From: Planctomycetaceae bacterium
GTDB lineage: Bacteria; Planctomycetota; Planctomycetia; Planctomycetales; Planctomycetaceae
Reading direction: 5' to 3'
Assembly (NCBI GenBank): GCA_021732845.1
Contig: JAKFUF010000071.1
Coordinates: 1-64,000 of the forward strand
Length of the DNA: 64,000 nucleotides
A program made the position numbers and the translations under genes. Positions within the stretch are counted from its first letter, which is position 1, and every line of letters begins with the position of its first letter. Positions 1 to 33,281 of this stretch are shown piece after piece. The notes beneath the pieces are model-generated. The model searched no databases. It was not told the origin of the DNA and saw only the letters and a program-made list of their open reading frames with translations.

Positions 1-224
1 GGTCAATCATCTCCCGCTGCTCCCCACCCCGCCTCACGGCGACGCAGTTGCGGTCGACTACAGGATCAAACTTAAACCTCCTGGCTGGGACTTTCACCCG
101 CCGATTCAACAAACGTGCAAGCGCACGAGGGCTCCAGCTCCTGCTGAGCCACGGTGAAGGGTGGGCGCTGCTTGGGTGTGAACGATTCGCAAATGACTCG
201 AAAGTCCTTCGAAAACGCCGGATC

Positions 225-1482: not shown

Positions 1483-1531
1483 ACTTGACCCGGCGTCGCG
1501 AAACGACATAGAAATTCTGTCGTTTTTGTGT

Positions 1532-1560
1532 TTGACATTGACAGAACACTCGGATAATCT
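1532..1560 (+). promoter_or_regulatory. Sigma-70-like promoter of the gene at 1600
   Basis: TTGACA (1532-1537) is followed by exactly 17 bases and TAATCT (1555-1560). It lies in an AT-rich island between the GC-rich repeat array and the ATG at 1600. The paralogous gene at 31554 has the same arrangement, TTGACA-N17-TATCGT, which supports function. Confidence 0.7.
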
Positions 1561-1599
1561 ATTTGATACACGGGTACATTGTGTTTTTTTGGGTGAATT

Positions 1600-2835
1600 A
1601 TGGAAGTTTTTATTCAGGATCCGGTGGCTCCCCAAAGCCCTCCAGGCGTGGCTCCATCCGGCGAGGGGCGGGCGCGGAAGGAGCGGGCGGATTGCAAGGT
1701 GACGGACGAGGGGCTGTACCACGCCATCGTGGCTCATCTCGGCGTGTTGTCTTACGTCGCGATCGCGGTGGGGATCAACCGTTCGGCGCTGTACAAGCGG
1801 ATCGAGCGTGCGCCGGCACTGCAGGCGGCCCGCGATGGGGCGCGGCGGATGCTGTTGTCGCGGGCGACCTACCATTTGCGCAAGGCACTGCACGCGGGGA
1901 TCGACTGGGCGGTCCACTACGTCATGTGCCGTGAATACCAGCTCTGGACGCCATTCAATGAGCCACAGCCGCCGACGGAAGCGCAGGTGAACAGGGCTCC
2001 GCGCGAGCCGAAACTGGAAGAGGCGGAGGAGGTTGAGGAACAACCGGAGCGGGCAGGCAAGTCGCTGCGGCGGCTGATCCGCGCTGTGGAGCGCGGGGAG
2101 CCGTGGGCGGTCAAGTACTGTTTGAATCACCTGGACCCGCGCGGCCGGTATGCGAAGAAGTACCGTGGCCGGAAGGCGGAAGCCACGGTTGGACAGGTTC
2201 GGCCCGAGGCACCGCCGGTGGTTATTGATGAAGTCGCCGCCGAACTGGCGAAGGCGGTCTTTGATGCGGAACGCGGCCGCGGGACAGACCAACGCCAAAA
2301 GCAAGCTGCGCCGCCTGTCTTGGCGTCGGACAACCGACCGGCGGACGAGCCCACAACAGTCGTCGAGACCGCGCAAGAAAACACTTCGCCCGCGCAGGCG
2401 TTGATGTCAGAGGCGGCTTGCCAGGAAGAGGCGATGATCTCTTCGGCACACGAATTACAGTCCGAGATTTTCGCGCCCACCCTCGAGGTGGGATCAGCGC
2501 CCACTGTTTCAATGAACGTTCAGAATCTGAGCCACGAGTTCGCGCCCACCTTGGATGTCGGGTTCGACGACAACTTCACTTCTCGACTGCCGACCGCCGC
2601 ACCGCTGCTCACGGCGACCGCGCCTGAACCGTTCGCGCCCACCCTTGAACCAGCGCCCACTTTGCACGCCGCACCACTTCCAGACAGCGCGCCCACCAAA
2701 CCCGCGAAGTGTTCGCCGTCCCGAAAGCACAAACAACCAAAATCTCAATCCCGCGACCGCACCCGAAAACGGCGCGTGAGGCCACTTTCAACGAAAAAGC
2801 GCAGCCACGTGCGCCGGTCACATTCGAACCCGTAG
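1600..2835 (+). CDS. Helix-turn-helix-like protein of unknown function with APT-repeat tail
   Basis: This is a 411-residue protein. Residues 34-85 look like a helix-turn-helix module: an LYHAIVAHLGVLSYVA helix, then VGINRSALYKRI, then a P.L..AR segment. Two short helical units follow, LRKALHAGIDWAVHYVM near 93-109 and LIRAVERGEPWAVKYCLNHL near 159-178. By eye the pattern resembles phage small-terminase-type DNA-binding proteins (HTH plus a G-WAV-YL helix), but this is inference. Residues from about 290 are Pro/Ala-rich with six in-frame APT units, and the C-terminus is strongly basic (RKRRVRP, KKRSHVRR). The ATG at 1600 lacks a clear Shine-Dalgarno site but sits 40 bases after a good promoter. 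A paralogue lies at 31554. Tandem repeat arrays flank this gene on both sides. Function unknown. Confidence 0.75.
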   Translation: MEVFIQDPVAPQSPPGVAPSGEGRARKERADCKVTDEGLYHAIVAHLGVLSYVAIAVGINRSALYKRIERAPALQAARDGARRMLLSRATYHLRKALHAGIDWAVHYVMCREYQLWTPFNEPQPPTEAQVNRAPREPKLEEAEEVEEQPERAGKSLRRLIRAVERGEPWAVKYCLNHLDPRGRYAKKYRGRKAEATVGQVRPEAPPVVIDEVAAELAKAVFDAERGRGTDQRQKQAAPPVLASDNRPADEPTTVVETAQENTSPAQALMSEAACQEEAMISSAHELQSEIFAPTLEVGSAPTVSMNVQNLSHEFAPTLDVGFDDNFTSRLPTAAPLLTATAPEPFAPTLEPAPTLHAAPLPDSAPTKPAKCSPSRKHKQPKSQSRDRTRKRRVRPLSTKKRSHVRRSHSNP

Positions 2836-2857: not shown

Positions 2858-2969
2858 GATGAACGGTTGATGCTCCTTTCGCCCATCGGTTTGGCGAATC
2901 CCAAGTCAATCCATGCATCCAATGTTTTTCGGCCCTCCGGTGAGCCACCACGGGTCGGTCCTCGTTCAC

Positions 2970-3831
2970 CGGACGGCTTGCGCCGTGCCGTTCAAATGGA
3001 ACCCTTCGGAAGAGCCAGATCGTCGGTTGTTCGCGGCTCTGGAGGACCAGAGCCCTCCCGCCGCGCCGGTCGACAAATGCAAACAACCGGATTGTCCCAG
3101 CGTAACGCCGGACGGCTCGCGCCGTGCCGCTCAAATGGAACCCTTCGAAAAGGCCGGATCGCGGGTTGTTCGCGGCTCTGGAGGACCAGAGCCCTCCCGC
3201 CACGCTGGTCGACAAATGCAAACAACCGGGTTGTCCCAGCGTAACACCGGACGGCTTGCGCCGTGCCGCTCAAATGGAACCCTTCGAAAACGCCGGATCG
3301 ACTGTTGTTCGCGGCTCTGGAGGACCAGAGCCCTCCCGCCACGCCGTTCGACAAATGCAAACAACCGGATTGTCCCAGCGTAACACCGGACGGCTTGCGC
3401 CGTGCCGCTCAAATGGAACCCTTCGAAAACGCCGGATCGACTGTTGCTCGCGGCTCTGGAGGACCAGAGCCCTCCCGCCACGCCGTTCGACAAATGCAAA
3501 CAACCAGATTGTCCCAGCGTAACACCGGACGGCTTGCGCCGTGCCGCTCAAATGGAACCCTTCGAAAACGCCGCATCGCGGGTTGCTCGCGGCTCTGGAG
3601 GACCAGAGTCCTCCCGCCACGCTGGTCGACAAATGCAAACAACCGGATTGTCCCAGCGTAACACCGGACGGCTTGCGCCGTGCCGTTCAAATGGAACCCT
3701 TCGGAAGAGCCAGATCGTCGGTTGTTCGCGGCTCTGGAGGACCAGAGCCCGCCCGCCGCGCCGGTCGACAAATGCAAACAACTGGATTGTCCCAGCGTAA
3801 CGCCGGACGGCTTGCGCCGTGCCGCTCAAGA
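2970..3831. repeat. 139-bp tandem repeat array, six full units
   Basis: The word CGGACGG recurs at 2970, 3109, 3248, 3387, 3526, 3665 and 3804, an exact 139-base period. Units differ by a few substitutions only. Each unit carries the perfect hairpin GGCTCTGGAGGACCAGAGCC and a second short hairpin ACGGC-TTGC-GCCGT. The period is not a multiple of three and open frames appear in several frames and on both strands, so coding is unlikely. The unit is related to the core of the 431-bp array upstream of the gene at 1600. No gene is seen between 2836 and 3871. Confidence 0.95.
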
Positions 3832-3871: not shown

Positions 3872-5296
3872 CTACAACTTGCGCACACTCGGGCGCACGT
3901 CCTGCAGGTGAATCCAAATCCAGAAGAGGCCTCCCAGCATGGAAATGGCGCCCGCCAGGGCGAGGCTGCCTTGCCAGCCGAGGTACAGACTGAGAAGCGG
4001 AGTGAAGGTGGGGGCGAGCAGGCCGCCGGCGTTGCCGCCCGCGTTAAGAATGGAACCGGAGAGTGCCGCGCGGTCTTTGCCGATTTCCAGGGCCGTTGTC
4101 CAGAACGAGGCTTCGCACAAGCCCAGCATCGCCATGGAAAGTCCGAAGCCGACAATTGATCCCAGGGGCCACGGGCTGAAAACCGCCAGCATCAACAGAA
4201 GACCACTGATGGTCATTCCGCATAAGGGTGTGATGGCCCGGCCGCGACGGCTGCCGAAAATGGCCTGCATCCGGTCAGCCGAAAGCCCCCCGAACAACAT
4301 GCCGGCCGCCATCGACAGGGTGATGCCCGTTGTCCACAGGCGCGAATCCGGCACACTGTAATGCAGCGTGTTCGTGATGTAGTACTGAGCCCAATTAAAA
4401 AAGAGATACTGAGAATAACTGTAGGCCGCGTAACTCAAGTTGAGCAGGATCATGTTTTTCTCGATCAGCATCGACCAGAATCCGGTCGTGGCTGAGCCGG
4501 CCGGCCGCGCGGGAACGCCGATCGCCGGGTCGCCTGCCTCAATGCAGCGGCGCTCGCTGGAATTGACCGCCGAGTGCTGCGCGGGACGATCCGCTCCGTA
4601 GAATGCCCAAATGAGAGTCAGCAATCCGGTGACGATTCCAGCCACGGCGAGGGCGGACCGCCAGCCACTGGCGTCGCCGAAGAAATGCCTGTCGGAAAGA
4701 AACCCGAAAATGGGAGGCGTGAGTGCCGCCCCGACCACGGCGGCTCCGGTGACGAGCCCGTTGCCCAGTCCGCGCGAGCCATACGGCAGCCAATACGAGA
4801 CGGCGCGGGCGGCACCGGGGTGCATGGGTGCGCCAAACACTCCGAGCAGTCCGCGGATCGCGCAGAGAGCCACGACCATCATGGGCAGCCCGAGCAGGCT
4901 GCCTGCCATTGTGTGGCTGCCGGGCGGAAGCCAGTACCCCACCAGTCCGGTCACGGGGACGAAGACCGCGAAGCCAAAGCCGAGGAACATCAGAGCCCCC
5001 TTGGGGCCGATGCGCTCAATCAGCCACCCGCCGGGAACCATCATCACGGTGTAGATGAGCAGATAGGACGTGTAGACGATCCCCATCTGCGTTTCTGAAA
5101 CATTGTAGTCGTTGATCTCGCGCTCAGGGTTCGTGATGATATGCTCGGTGCCCGCAACGTTGATGCTGTTGCGGTTGAAGTGAAACATGGCCGTCATTGT
5201 CATCAGCAGCAGCAGGATCACCCAGCGGACATTCGTCGGCGGCTCGGCCGCTGCGAGGCGTGCCGCTGAAGAAGAGTCTGCGCCGGATGAAGCCAT
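3872..5296 (-). CDS. MFS transporter, anion:cation symporter-like
   Basis: This is a 474-residue inner-membrane protein with about twelve hydrophobic segments. The N-terminal half (FHFNRNSINVAGTEHI, then VSETQMGIVYTSYLLIYTVM and PGGWLIERIGPKGAL) resembles the ACS branch of the major facilitator superfamily, whose members import sugar acids, sugar phosphates or organic anions. A second loop motif, GGLSADRMQAIFGSRRG, is near residue 345. The substrate cannot be read from sequence. The ATG at 5296 has AGGA nine bases upstream. It is transcribed alone. Its 3' end lies 40 bases from the 139-bp array, and 5297-5578 holds no convincing gene. Confidence 0.85.
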   Translation of the reverse strand: MASSGADSSSAARLAAAEPPTNVRWVILLLLMTMTAMFHFNRNSINVAGTEHIITNPEREINDYNVSETQMGIVYTSYLLIYTVMMVPGGWLIERIGPKGALMFLGFGFAVFVPVTGLVGYWLPPGSHTMAGSLLGLPMMVVALCAIRGLLGVFGAPMHPGAARAVSYWLPYGSRGLGNGLVTGAAVVGAALTPPIFGFLSDRHFFGDASGWRSALAVAGIVTGLLTLIWAFYGADRPAQHSAVNSSERRCIEAGDPAIGVPARPAGSATTGFWSMLIEKNMILLNLSYAAYSYSQYLFFNWAQYYITNTLHYSVPDSRLWTTGITLSMAAGMLFGGLSADRMQAIFGSRRGRAITPLCGMTISGLLLMLAVFSPWPLGSIVGFGLSMAMLGLCEASFWTTALEIGKDRAALSGSILNAGGNAGGLLAPTFTPLLSLYLGWQGSLALAGAISMLGGLFWIWIHLQDVRPSVRKL

Positions 5297-5578
5297 GTTT
5301 GATCCTGAAGAGCCTTGAGGGAGAACTTGGCGATGTCCCGAGGAGTCGCCGACATCGGGAGGATGGCGGCGCGGCAGTGCGGTTTGGCGAGGGCAATGCG
5401 GGGAAACTTGAGAGCGCTGAATGGAGAATAGCCACGGCCCGCACCGCCGTCCACCGGTGTGAAACGGATCGGGGCATGCGAAAGTGCGGCGTCCTCGCCG
5501 GGTGTCTTCCGAACACGGATGGATTGGCCTTTGAGTGCCGAGGCCTGGGCAATTGTCCCAAAAGGCATCCCTGTTTCA

Positions 5579-6667
5579 TCAACAGATCCTCGGAAGCTGT
5601 TCGCCGGACAGCATCGTGACCACCCGTTCGCCGCCAATGACCGACTTGAGAACCACCATCCCAGGATGCTCGGCGACGACGGTGCCAATCTCGGCGGCAT
5701 TGCGGCCGAGTGGGTGTGCCCGCATGGCCGCGAGCACCTGTTGGGCAACGGCTTCTGGAACGACAGCCAGCAGCTTGCCTTCGTTGGCGACAGACAGCGG
5801 GTCGAACCCCAGCATCTCGCAGGCGGCCCGCACCTCGCGGCGGATCGGCAGCCGAGCCTCCTGCAGCTTGATGCCGACGGCTGAAGCCACGGCCAGTTCG
5901 TTCAATGTACTGGAGACCCCACCCCGCGTTGGGTCGCGCATGCAGCGAATCTCGGTGGAGGCCTGAAACATCGCCTCGGCCAGCCCGTTGAGTGCCGCGG
6001 TGTCACTTTCCAAGACCGTTTCGAACTCCAACCCTTCGCGAACCGACATGATGGCAATGCCATGATCGCCGATGGTTCCAGAGAGCAGGATGCGGTCCCC
6101 CGGCCGGGCCTGATGAATCGACAGTTGCCGGCCTGGCGGAACCCAGCCGATGCCGGACGTGGTGATGAACATCCCATCGCCCTGTCCGCGCTCCACCACC
6201 TTGGTGTCGCCCGTCACCATCTGGACTCCGGCTTCAGCACAGGCGTGGCTCATCGACTCCACCACGCGCCGCAGATCAGCCATCGGCAAACCTTCCTCCA
6301 GGATGAAGGCCGCCGAGAGGAATTTGGGAATCGCACCACCCATCGCCAGATCGTTGACCGTCCCGTGAACCGCCAGTTTGCCGATGTCACCACCGGGAAA
6401 GAACAGCGGACGGACGACGAAGGCATCGGTGGTGAAGGCGAGCCGCGGAGCCGGTTGGCCGACGTTCGCAGGAACACATCCCGACAGATCCAGCGTCGCC
6501 TGATCCTCCAGTGCCGAGAGGATCGGGTTACCCCAGGCGGGCAGGAACACGTTTTGGATAAGGTCCGCCGTGAGCCTCCCGCCGCTGCCGTGCCCCAGCA
6601 GAATCTGCTCGTGCCGGGACTGTGGCTGCGGGCAGGTCATGCGGCTGAAGTCCACAGCCTCCGTCAT
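5579..6667 (-). CDS. hypE: HypE, carbamoyl dehydratase for [NiFe] hydrogenase maturation
   Basis: HypE accepts a carbamoyl group from HypF on its C-terminal cysteine and dehydrates it to the cyanide ligand of the hydrogenase active site. The 362-residue protein has the expected GHGSGGRL start region (about residue 26), the AIR-synthase-like segments [14 protein letters not shown] and [20 protein letters not shown], and the C-terminus PRIC, whose last residue is the modified cysteine. Length is normal for the family. Its ATG overlaps the hypD stop codon as ATGA, so the two are translationally coupled. HypF is not in the window. Confidence 0.95.
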
Positions 6668-7791
6668 GACAGCCCCGCGCAGTCGATAAGGATCGGTTCT
6701 GACTGCCGAAACCGACCGTAATTGTGGTAGGCGGCGCAGGCCCCTTCCGAAGAGACCATCGTGGCTCCCAGCGGATGCTCGGGGGTGCAGCTTGTGCCGA
6801 AGGCCGGGCAGTCATGTGGCTTCAGCAACCCCTGCAAGATTGAGCCACTGACGCAGGCTTCCGATTCGCGAACGTCGATGTGGTCCACCGAAAACCGTAG
6901 TTCGGCGTCGAACTCTGCGTAAGCCGGGCTGAGCCGAAAGCCGCTCGCGGGAATGTTGCCAATGCCCCGCCATTTGCGGTCGCCCACCGCGAAGACTTCG
7001 CGAAGAAGTTGTTGTGCCTTCAAACTGCCCTCGCGGCGGACCGCACGGGCGTATTGGTTCTCCACCCCCACCCGCCCGGCTTCGAGCATGCAAAGGCAGT
7101 CGTAAATCCCTTCCAGCAAATCCAGTGGCTCAAACCCCGTGACGACAATCGGAATTTGAAACCGTTCCGCCAGTGGAAGGTACTCTTCATACCCCATCAC
7201 GGAGCAGACATGTCCGGCCCCCAGAAACCCCTGCACCCGGTTATCCGGCGAAGAGAGGATGGCCGTCATGGCCGGTGGGACCAACACATGCGAAACCAGC
7301 ACGGCGAAGTTTTTCAAACCCCGCTTCCGGGCCTGCCAGACGACCATCGCGTTCGCGGGGGCCGTGGTCTCGAAACCGACCGCAAAGAACACCACGCACC
7401 GCCCCGGATTGGTTTCGGCGATTTTCAGACAATCCAGCGGCGAATAAATGACACGGACATCACCGCCACGGGCCTTGACGGTCAGCAGATCGGACTGGCT
7501 GCCGGGGACCCGCAGCATGTCTCCGTAAGAGCAGAAGATCACGTCCGGCCGGCTGGCGATGGCGATCGCCTTGTCGATCAGTTCGAGCGGCGTGACGCAC
7601 ACCGGACAGCCCGGCCCATGCACCAGTTCCACCTGCGGCGGCAGCAGCTCATCAATGCCATACTTGACGATCGTATGCGTCTGCCCGCCGCAGACCTCCA
7701 TGATCGTCCACGGCCGCGTCACAACCTGACGGATTGCCTGCTGAAGTTTTTGGGCCGCGGCCGGATCACGGTATTCGTCCTGGAACTTCAT
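6664..7791 (-). CDS. hypD: HypD, Fe-S scaffold for [NiFe] hydrogenase Fe(CN)2CO assembly
   Basis: HypD carries a [4Fe-4S] cluster and, with HypC, holds the iron that receives CN and CO ligands. The 375-residue sequence shows the family motifs in order: MEVCGGQTH near residue 32, [10 protein letters not shown] near 80, [21 protein letters not shown] near 158, and the C-terminal [20 protein letters not shown] region. All the key cysteines appear present. It overlaps hypC by four bases upstream and hypE by four bases downstream, forming a compact hypCDE operon. Confidence 0.96.
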
Positions 7792-8126
7792 GGGGCCTCC
7801 TGCGGCGCTGTTGGCGTTGGAGCGTCCGTTTCGCAGGGTGCCGCGCCGTTCACCGTTTGCACCGACTCGTCTTCGTCTGTTCCGGCGGCTTCGAGTTCCT
7901 GCAGTTCGTTCATCTGCTCCAGGAAGGCGAACACCTGCTTCGCTTCGGCCTCGTCAATGACCTGCAGGGCGAACCCCACATGCACGATCACGAAATCGCC
8001 GACGCGAGCTTCGGGCGTGTGTTCCAGACAAACGCGTTTGAACACGCCGCCGAAGTCGACCTTGCCCATGAGCATGTCATGCTCGGAATAGGTCTCGATC
8101 ACTTCGCCCGGAATGCCCAGACACAT
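7788..8126 (-). CDS. hypC: HypC, hydrogenase assembly chaperone
   Basis: This is a 112-residue protein starting MCLGIPG, where Cys2 is the residue that binds the iron in HypC/HybG chaperones. [14 protein letters not shown] and the following DEAEA segment are typical. The last 30 residues form an acidic and Ala/Pro-rich tail (TPTAPQEAP end) beyond the usual 75-90 residue family length. It leads the hypCDE operon. The 139 bases upstream, up to the stop of the DUF1501 gene, contain an inverted repeat, so hypCDE may have its own promoter. Confidence 0.95.
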
Positions 8127-31553: not shown

Positions 31554-33281
31554 ATGGGCATGAAAATGGGTGTCTTCAGCGTTGTTGACGGGGCGGGCGT
31601 GGGGCGTGAGGTTGCAGCTAATAATCGGCAGGCTGGGGCTGGCCCTTCGGTGACGGAGGATCAGTTGTTTGAGGCGATTTGTCAGAATTTTGGGGTGCTG
31701 GCCTGCGCCGCCATCCATGCGGGGCTGACCCTGGCATCGCTGGTGCAGCGAGTGGCTCGCTCGAAGCGGCTGCGGACGTGGCGGGATGCCGCGCGGAGCG
31801 TGATGATCCACCATGCCAATGAGCGGCTGCAAGAGGCGGTGGCCGTGGGAGAGGTGTGGGCGCTACAGTTTTGTGCGCGGGCCGGCGTGAAGACCGGTGT
31901 TACGGCAGTCGCGGGAAAGTCATCGGAAGTGCTGTCGTTTTCCTCGCATCGCGTGGCTCAACCGGTGGCGCAGGGTGAGCCACAGCCGGATTTGGCGGTG
32001 GCACTGAGCAAGCGGTTGGTCGTCGCACTGGACCGCGGCGAGCCGTGGGCGGTGATGTACTGCTTGAGCCACCTGGACCCCGAGGGACCGTTTTTCGCCA
32101 AGTGCCGCCGTGGCTGGCAGCACGACCTGTGGGTGGAGCAGCTCGTCGCCGCTCCGATGGTCACGGTGAGTGCGGTAGAACCTGGTGATTGCGAGGTTGT
32201 GGATGCGATGGAAGTGTTGGAGGGGCGTGGGGATGCTGAGCCACGGTTGATGGTTGACGAGGGATTGGACGGTGCCGGGGCAGCGCCGCCTGTCGATCAG
32301 AAGTCGGAGCAAACCTCTACGACGAGCTCTGCGCCCCCTGTCACGGGAACGGTCGCGTTGGCCCCAACCAACGATACCGCGCCCCCTATCCGCACTCGTA
32401 GTGTGGCCTTAAGTCCACACCCAAGTTGTCAGCCCCTCGCGGCCACTTCGGCTCAAGCCGAAGCCACGAAAGCAACCTGCCTCGCGCCCCCTATCTGTTG
32501 CGGCCAGTTTGAGCGTCGGTCGTGCCTGTCTGCCGGCGGATCAGGAGTCGGTACCAGAGGAGCGCCGCCTGTCAGCGCCCGTTGTGCGCTTCTTTCATGC
32601 CGGGGTCATAGAAACGGGTCGGTCACTCCAGTCATGTCGTGTCAACAATTGACTTCCCGAAGCTCAATCCATTGTCGCCTGCAGCCTTTCCCGTGCCGCA
32701 TCAGCCCACGGGCCGCGCTGGTCGAAACCCAGATAGGTAGCCCAGTGCGATTTGGCTTCGTCCGTTCGTCCGAGTTGCTGCAGCGCGTCGGCCAGATGAA
32801 AGTGGGCGTCGGGGTAGTCGGGGTGGATCGACAGCGCGGTCTCGAATGCGTCCGCAGCGGCGTGCCAGTCTTCCAGTTCTCCGGCGACGCAGCCCATTTG
32901 GGTCCAGGCTTCGACATAGTCCGGGGCGAGTTCCACAGTGATGGCGTACCGCTCCAGCGCGCCGTGTGGGTTGTGCATCCGGTACAGCGTTTCTGCCAGG
33001 TGAAAGTTCAACTCCGGATGTGCGGGGTTGAGCCTCAAGGCTCGACGATAGGCGGCTGCCGCGGCGTCCATGTCGCCCAATTCTGTCAGCCGCCGCGCCT
33101 CGACGGCCTCCTCTTCCACTGTGGCTTGTCGGGGGGCGGGTTGCGGGAACGCGATCGAAGCCACGTTGGCGTGCTCGGCCAGTCCTTCTTCCGTCTCGTG
33201 ACTTTCAAAATCCAGCAGCCGCTGTCCGGTGGTCGTCGTCAACCGCCCGGCCGGATCGCGATAACCGAGTCCGGCAGTTGA
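31554..33281 (+). CDS. Paralogue of the helix-turn-helix protein at 1600; 3' end uncertain
   Basis: Residues 32-110 (VTEDQLFEAICQNFGVLACAA, then RTWRDAARSVMIHHANERLQEAVAVGEVWALQF) align with the HTH and G-WAV region of the protein at 1600. LVVALDRGEPWAVMYCLSHLDPEG near 152-176 matches its second helix unit almost exactly. A Pro-rich tail with five in-frame APPV/APPI units extends to about base 32575. Beyond about 32640 the frame is antisense to the BRCT-MerR-TPR gene and reads like shadow sequence, so an original stop may have been lost and the real protein may end earlier. The ATG lacks a ribosome site; two more ATGs follow within five codons. Function unknown. Confidence 0.65.
   Translation: MGMKMGVFSVVDGAGVGREVAANNRQAGAGPSVTEDQLFEAICQNFGVLACAAIHAGLTLASLVQRVARSKRLRTWRDAARSVMIHHANERLQEAVAVGEVWALQFCARAGVKTGVTAVAGKSSEVLSFSSHRVAQPVAQGEPQPDLAVALSKRLVVALDRGEPWAVMYCLSHLDPEGPFFAKCRRGWQHDLWVEQLVAAPMVTVSAVEPGDCEVVDAMEVLEGRGDAEPRLMVDEGLDGAGAAPPVDQKSEQTSTTSSAPPVTGTVALAPTNDTAPPIRTRSVALSPHPSCQPLAATSAQAEATKATCLAPPICCGQFERRSCLSAGGSGVGTRGAPPVSARCALLSCRGHRNGSVTPVMSCQQLTSRSSIHCRLQPFPCRISPRAALVETQIGSPVRFGFVRSSELLQRVGQMKVGVGVVGVDRQRGLECVRSGVPVFQFSGDAAHLGPGFDIVRGEFHSDGVPLQRAVWVVHPVQRFCQVKVQLRMCGVEPQGSTIGGCRGVHVAQFCQPPRLDGLLFHCGLSGGGLRERDRSHVGVLGQSFFRLVTFKIQQPLSGGRRQPPGRIAITESGS

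Follow-up and report, generated by a model that had tools for sequence, protein, structure and literature searches.

The window described here is a stretch of 64,000 nucleotides at the start of contig C34 in a Planctomycetaceae genome of 9.25 Mb (95.7% complete, 262 contigs). On its forward strand, an open reading frame with an ATG start (1600-2835) encodes a protein of 411 amino acids, which homology searches and a fold model liken to the DNA-binding small terminase subunit (TerS) of phages. The gene is placed between two tandem arrays, as an earlier note on this DNA had it and as the ORF and Tandem Repeats Finder (TRF) confirm; both arrays are present, but the 431 and 139 bp cited there as array lengths are the lengths of their units. 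The upstream array (229-1479; unit 431 bp, 2.9 copies, TRF score 2024) holds several hairpin modules, such as GGCTCTGGACGACCAGAGCC (238-257), the type beside which copies of a group II intron sit, and GAGTCACTCCGTGACTC (484-500), the first of six exact copies within the array. The downstream array (2967-3829; unit 139 bp, 6.2 copies, TRF score 1474) carries the modules GGCTTGCGCC and GGCTCTGG..CCAGAGCC, and the remaining six TRF rows in the window are short, with scores of 50-62. The contig begins inside a group II intron, the 5' end of which (GTGCG start, reverse-complemented) occupies 1-126 on the reverse strand. Also on the reverse strand, positions 3872-8126 contain an ORF that we take to encode an MFS-type transporter and three ORFs presumably resembling HypE, HypD and HypC of hydrogenase maturation.

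Directly upstream of the gene, an AT-rich stretch, a sigma-70 promoter and a leader (1497-1599, forward strand) make up the conserved 5' part of a unit dispersed in this genome, as delimited by a shared left boundary, the upstream DNA and a promoter test (see below). The promoter reported earlier is borne out, with the -35 box TTGACA at 1532-1537, a spacer of 17 bp and the -10 box TAATCT at 1555-1560. In most subfamilies of the gene, a GTA(C/T)AT-centred element, noticed by eye and a possible operator, follows the -10 box (for example, window 1559-1582). Within the forward-strand reading frame, the predicted helix-turn-helix (HTH; residues ~30-70) is encoded at 1687-1809 and a first helical hairpin of the TerS oligomerisation type (residues 72-112), recognized in the structure models and by VIA-align, at 1813-1935; a second predicted helical hairpin (residues 149-178; 2044-2133) was not seen in short phage homologues. 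The two G-WAV-Y helices of the earlier note are located at residues ~100-107 (GIDWAVHY) and 166-173 (GEPWAVKY), and its basic tail corresponds to the C-terminal ~40 residues, which are strongly basic. Further along the same strand lie the 12-bp word GCGCCGCCTGTC (2308-2319), read in frame as APPV, and, in the tail-coding part, six in-frame copies of GCGCCCAC[C/T] (2473-2697) that encode an APT motif. The stop codon is overlapped by GTAGGATGGCCTTCCGAGGCCGTC (2832-2855), a sequence resembling GTAG-tagged REPs that is found in several near copies. A second, diverged paralogue of 575 amino acids, with its own promoter, occupies 31554-33281 on the forward strand and contains 12-bp words at 32283, 32331 and 32562.

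In the AlphaFold2 prediction of the full protein, a confident HTH (30-70) is followed by a long helical hairpin (72-112), a second hairpin (149-178) and then mostly disorder, and most of the core exceeds pLDDT 90; when the core was modelled by itself, from an alignment that included phage homologues (A4), the mean pLDDT was 91.5. Among 214 chains compared by VIA-align, the top match is the TerS of phage Sf6 (Z 6.2, 79 of 93 residues aligned, rmsd 4.1) and the third is the phage protein phBC6A51 (Z 4.9), while Foldseek with the core model returns one and the same phage protein (2ao9) at ranks 1-7 with weak E values of 0.5 to 1.2. We take this 2ao9/phBC6A51-type protein to belong among the TerS proteins. 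These fold scores against TerS are middling (Z below 8), and the gene context of homologues is the stronger support. For example, L106, the one among the nine profile-A1 homologues whose neighbours were searched with Pfam, lies directly upstream of a large terminase gene, TerL (PF03237/PF04466, E 4e-22). Another homologue (L168), on a phage contig present in IMG/VR and also as an Armatimonadetes MAG contig, is a terminase small subunit by PHROGs (phrog_309/4044, E 4e-11) and precedes TerL. The resemblance to phage small terminases proposed earlier is therefore supported by the predicted HTH and hairpin, the Sf6 match and the TerL-adjacent homologues; the window protein itself has no direct match to any TerS family in Pfam or PHROGs. 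Taken together, the family is most likely derived from a phage small terminase, from which its protein would differ by the extra hairpin and the tail.

Several other searches gave no usable assignment. The Pfam match to P22_Cro (E 0.0037) is below the family cut-off, PHROGs returned nothing useful for the window protein, and a sequence search of the PDB found nothing for the single protein and, with profile A4, HTH regulators or repressors at E 0.1-1. With the first structure model, a Foldseek search of the PDB produced two uninformative rows, and VIA-align matched it to TetR-type HTH proteins with Z up to 3.8. The same model yielded weak Foldseek matches in BFVD, several of which are phage HTH or terminase small subunit proteins.

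About fifty TerS-like genes, the window gene among them, are scattered through this one genome. A protein search with the 411-aa sequence finds 69 matches there, some being pieces of one gene; about 20 are close (75-96% amino acid identity across 125 residues or more, some truncated where a contig stops), and most of the others are diverged (~31-52% identity) or fragments. Searching the same genome with profile A2 gives 59 matches, and among the family loci examined, 49 genes are 200 aa or longer and intact at the 5' end. One group of relatives, ‘WREG’, is small, with 7 matches of which several are fragments. Outside this genome the family is rare. No match at E 0.001 occurs in 39 relatives of the same family or class, and the genus is represented by the source genome alone in the collection searched. 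Profile A1 matches 9 of 296 other genomes of the class, once each (E 3e-16 to 1e-8), and profile A2 matches one of 391 other genomes in a sample of the phylum; 8-9 candidates were scored per genome in both scans, so copy numbers elsewhere are lower bounds. The nine profile-A1 homologues have open frames of 123-303 aa, five of which were not the frame chosen in the mechanical ORF list. Scans with profile A2 recover one relative among GTDB contigs (L168) and three in IMG/VR, one apparently identical to L168, with the source genome itself possibly left out of both. A tblastn search of the core against 50,697 phage records returns nothing at E 0.1, and searches of open-access papers listed no such family.

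Near copies of the gene show purifying selection on the folded core and a fast-changing tail. Across 120 aligned pairs of 16 near copies, the median dN/dS is 0.05 for the core (at dS 0.26) and 0.53 for the tail (at dS 0.27), and two diverged subfamilies display weaker core constraint (0.32-0.35). This conclusion relies on the aligned 120-pair comparison and not on the ungapped sum over disjoint closest pairs, the value of which (0.31) includes two of eight pairs that look out of register, and one pair that holds the diverged L018. The promoter is retained as well. A TTGAC-N17-19-TANNNT motif lies within 220 bp upstream of 16/16 near genes and of 11/12, 8/9 and 4/5 genes in three other subfamilies, amounting to 39 of 42 genes compared with 5 of 394 control ORFs, which were called mechanically; ORFs under 200 aa or lacking a 5' end were set aside in the promoter and array tests. 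The fifth subfamily, SGRP, has this promoter in none of its four genes.

Such constraint bears on the idea that the gene is a useless passenger, amplified passively by recombination between REP arrays. Decayed fragments and copies bearing stops or lying in pieces do exist (C183, C198, C42, C220), and contigs end in repeats, observations in favor of that idea, but a core dN/dS of 0.05 across the near-copy pairs and a promoter kept in nearly all genes of four subfamilies render passive amplification extremely improbable.

What is copied appears to be a compact unit. In 29 of 42 listed near-copy pairs (at least 90% identity over more than 500 bp), the left boundary of the shared DNA falls between -96 and -109 from the start codon; in the other pairs, similarity extends further upstream, into shared arrays. 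The right boundary lies mostly around the stop codon or up to ~140 bp past it. For instance, three copies (L028, L029 and L030) are 99% identical in different surroundings, with identity stopping at the last GCGCCGCCTGT and the stop codon, and one of the three has a different promoter. By BLAST clustering of neighbours, no protein family recurs at more than seven of the 61 family loci. The largest cluster, with 7 loci, and four 3-locus clusters look, from labels assigned by eye, like ordinary cellular proteins, and one 5-locus cluster is array DNA read as an ORF. No transposase domain was noticed in the family protein, and inspection by eye noticed no terminal inverted repeats or target duplications. 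From the lack of such a domain, of terminal repeats and of a constant neighbour, we infer copying by recombination. In eight diverged loci (L031, L040, L041, L043, L046, L048, L050 and L060), the 3' parts of the ORFs extend into tandem arrays of 171-183 bp; these arrays lengthen the predicted proteins, and some put hairpin words in the coding frame.

The hairpin arrays beside the gene were suggested in the earlier note to be the protein's binding targets. Linkage of family genes to such arrays is real within this genome. The module GAGTCACTCCGTGACTC alone has 295 exact genome occurrences, compared with 0 for the reversed word, and modules are found in 23 of 33 flanks of the near subfamily and in 8/20, 7/18 and 3/8 flanks of three other subfamilies; among control gaps 500 bp or longer, 7 of 106 contain them. 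The MNCQ subfamily has modules in 2/9 flanks, which is not significant against gaps, so that linkage reaches P below 0.05 in four of five subfamilies by this comparison. Measured against control genes, 19 of 346 of which have modules on either side, linkage is seen on at least one side in all five. These statistics leave aside fragment-only loci (L022, L023, L024, L061-L064, L070), the second ORF of L021 and flanks under 300 bases; near copies share ancestry, and their array flanks are therefore not independent.

The linkage was not recovered in other genomes. None of the source genome's modules occurs at 12 homologous loci elsewhere, in a one-sided test that used words from the source genome, and TRF finds only two short arrays there, with units of 20 and 27 bp. 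The expectation that homologues would sit beside hairpin arrays holds beyond controls in the gene's own genome and, for these modules, at 0 of 12 homologous loci outside it. Modules are found, too, in stretches that lack family genes, and diverged subfamilies adjoin different arrays.

A different set of genes appears to account for the modules. The genome contains eight matches to Y1_Tnp (RAYT-type) transposases, five of them over the family cut-off, and modules lie within 1 kb of five of the eight (L249, L065, L067, L251 and L253), compared with 41 of 695 control windows from which family and RAYT stretches were masked (P 5e-5). Three of the module-flanked matches are over the Pfam cut-off (C57, C215, C228) and two are below it (C58, C63); the latter two look like copies of one segment. 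Modules stand on both sides of the match in C58, C63 and C215, and at C215 (L251) the GGCTTGCGCC module recurs at ~83-bp spacing on both sides, whereas the matches in C4, C53 and C233 have no modules within 1 kb. Three of the eight matches (C233, C58 and C63) lie ~1 kb or less from family genes. GTAG-like sequences were also seen by eye. Since the modules are absent from homologous loci and lie near five of eight Y1_Tnp matches, the arrays are best read as REP-type repeats; they are most likely repeats of RAYT transposases and not dedicated targets of the HTH protein.

An evident user of one module is the group II intron. The genome has 34 matches to its 5' end; one is internal, at 91% identity, and at least 32 lie where contigs end. 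Window positions 1-103 match RF02003 at E 0.032, below threshold, and other contigs begin with the intron 3' end, where RF00029 (Intron_gpII, domain V) matches at 54 bits (E 6e-8) in L012 and L155. In 29 of the 30 places fetched from the 34, a GGCTC..GAGCCCTC-type module or a variant directly precedes the intron, a count made with no folding control; at the one remaining place the intron lies within a family gene (C198), with a different predicted hairpin close by. Group IIC introns characteristically have a stem-loop before their insertion site (PMC7923331). One array hairpin is a landing site of this multi-copy intron, which means that the evident user of that hairpin is not the HTH protein. 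The intron is collapsed in the assembly and inserted in two family genes, in C198 and in C32, where the family-gene copy (L019) is cut at the intron 3' end.

Repeats that are missing from the 12 homologous loci, flank Y1 transposases and serve as intron sites are poor candidates for the targets of the HTH protein. Despite the linkage within this genome, the proposal that the arrays are its binding sites is very doubtful, given also the modules that lie apart from family genes, the different arrays beside diverged subfamilies and the non-significant MNCQ flanks. The earlier note was half right: the array linkage is real here and is better explained by REP biology, and the gene is more unusual than was supposed.

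Another recurrent sequence lies inside the gene. The 12-bp word GCGCC[G/C]CCTGTC recurs in tail-coding DNA, where its in-frame reading is APPV, and 96 of the 120 APPV motifs in family ORFs use exactly these codons, compared with ~1% predicted from family codon usage. Genome-wide, the word has 176 occurrences and its reversed form 19. Among 100 genome places listed, all but ~12 lie in or beside family genes or in family tails cut by contig ends, and eight of those ~12 fall in three other ORFs rich in APPV/APPI. In random stretches totalling 800 kb, exact GCGCCGCCTGTC was found four times, every time in two loci (L110 and L147) that both hold family genes. Around 49 family genes (500 bp upstream through 600 bp downstream), all 102 words found lie on the coding strand. 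At least one word is present for 41 of these genes, and of the 90 words within ORFs, 84 are in the APPV frame and six are out of it. The word is missing from the four SGRP genes and from the 12 homologous loci in other genomes. Three ORFs without a recognised HTH (L239:3512-4849, L233:4732-5526 and L238:3641-4591) have many APPV/APPI repeats and contain the word, and an in-frame repeat, ERGTPIAD.EGGASRPSAPG, is common to L238 and L068. These patterns leave three candidate roles for the word: DNA binding site, cassette boundary or protein motif.

We tentatively favor, with somewhat less than even confidence, a genome-specific, TerS-derived family whose product is an oligomeric DNA binder that recognizes its own gene copies, and whose promoter-ORF unit has spread among REP-rich loci. 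An intact copy would consist of a promoter and one ORF, encoding a protein in which an N-terminal HTH is followed by two copies of a TerS-like oligomerisation hairpin and by a basic, disordered tail that changes fast. Copies would persist through selection on the folded core, and the unit was probably copied between intergenic REP-rich loci by recombination. The protein would most likely be an oligomeric, sequence-specific DNA binder recognizing DNA in its own gene copies, with two candidates for the recognized sequence, singly or together: GCGCC[G/C]CCTGTC in the DNA that encodes the tail, and the element that immediately follows the promoter. Such self-recognition could be likened to phage P22, whose packaging site (pac) lies inside the TerS gene (PMC9611059). 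DNA binding would follow from the modelled fold; oligomer formation, self-recognition and the mode of spread are what we infer beyond it. Speaking against this reading, the word is nearly always in the APPV frame and may be a protein motif spread by duplication.

That objection underlies the main rival, in which a family of host adaptors or regulators has expanded, the APPV and APT motifs are docking motifs in a disordered tail, and constant codons reflect recent duplication of tail segments. This is possible, though on balance unlikely. It would account for the 84 of 90 in-frame words, for APPV/APPI repeats in the three ORFs without a recognised HTH, and for the 171-183 bp tandem arrays, mostly multiples of three, that overlap 3' parts of ORFs. 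Near copies are compatible with it too: 52% of their four-fold sites are invariant anyway, and the word is not significantly more synonymously conserved than the rest. Divergent genes tell against it, however. In eleven of them, third-base identity is 0.85 at the first word compared with 0.54 at four-fold positions of the conserved core (P 0.004 by random draws); the near family's second APPV is synonymously fixed while its first varies, and six in-ORF words are out of the APPV frame.

A stronger form of self-recognition would make the gene a self-targeting selfish element without a transposase: a TerS-type ring would recognize the 12-bp word in its own coding DNA, gene and site would multiply as one unit, and tails would be exchanged at the sites, independently of phages. 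We consider this scenario quite unlikely. Dependence on phages is at the heart of yet another reading, in which the copies are minimal packaging parasites, each redirecting the TerL of a helper phage to the surrounding DNA in the manner of a SaPI TerS. SaPI DNA is packaged by a TerS homologue that the SaPIs themselves encode (PMC11921389). A TerS-type core, a strong promoter of its own and possible recognition sites within the gene would suit such a parasite, but PF03237 has no match in the source genome, compared with matches in 6 of 14 control genomes, and the L168 TerL as query finds nothing there (a search with no positive control). BLAST clustering of the 61 family loci likewise reveals no TerL as a recurrent neighbour of family genes and no widely recurrent neighbour of any kind. 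A helper could be an outside phage, and even so we regard packaging parasitism as very improbable.

About fifty dispersed, promoter-bearing TerS-like genes in one genome, with near copies under selection and a recurrent DNA word in their fast-changing tail, would represent either a new chromosomal use of the fold or a new route of spread for a solitary gene. The 12-bp word and the promoter region offer concrete candidate binding targets. The genome also brings together, at the same loci, RAYT-type genes, REP arrays and a group II intron that seeks hairpins.

The locus can be compared with several known systems. The arrays resemble REP/RAYT systems (REPtrons) in their high-copy, dispersed palindromic modules, in their tandem arrangement and in the Y1 genes they flank; this likeness concerns the arrays and not the HTH gene, in whose protein no Y1 domain was found. 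The intron resembles group IIC introns in lying directly after a hairpin in the 5' exon and in its RF00029 match, a comparison that accounts only for where contigs end and for a single use of the hairpins. With SaPI/PICI satellites the family has in common a TerS homologue outside a phage genome, but BLAST clustering finds no satellite-type gene set beside the copies, and no PF03237 TerL is resident. TerS itself is known as a phage packaging factor, usually present as one gene per phage. Its architecture (PMC9611059) runs from an N-terminal HTH through a helical hairpin for oligomerisation to a flexible C-terminal part, and the family protein is predicted to share this order. It differs in having 411 aa rather than the usual 15-21 kDa, in its duplicated hairpin and long, fast-changing basic tail, and in being encoded, within one genome devoid of PF03237 matches to TerL, by about fifty chromosomal copies.
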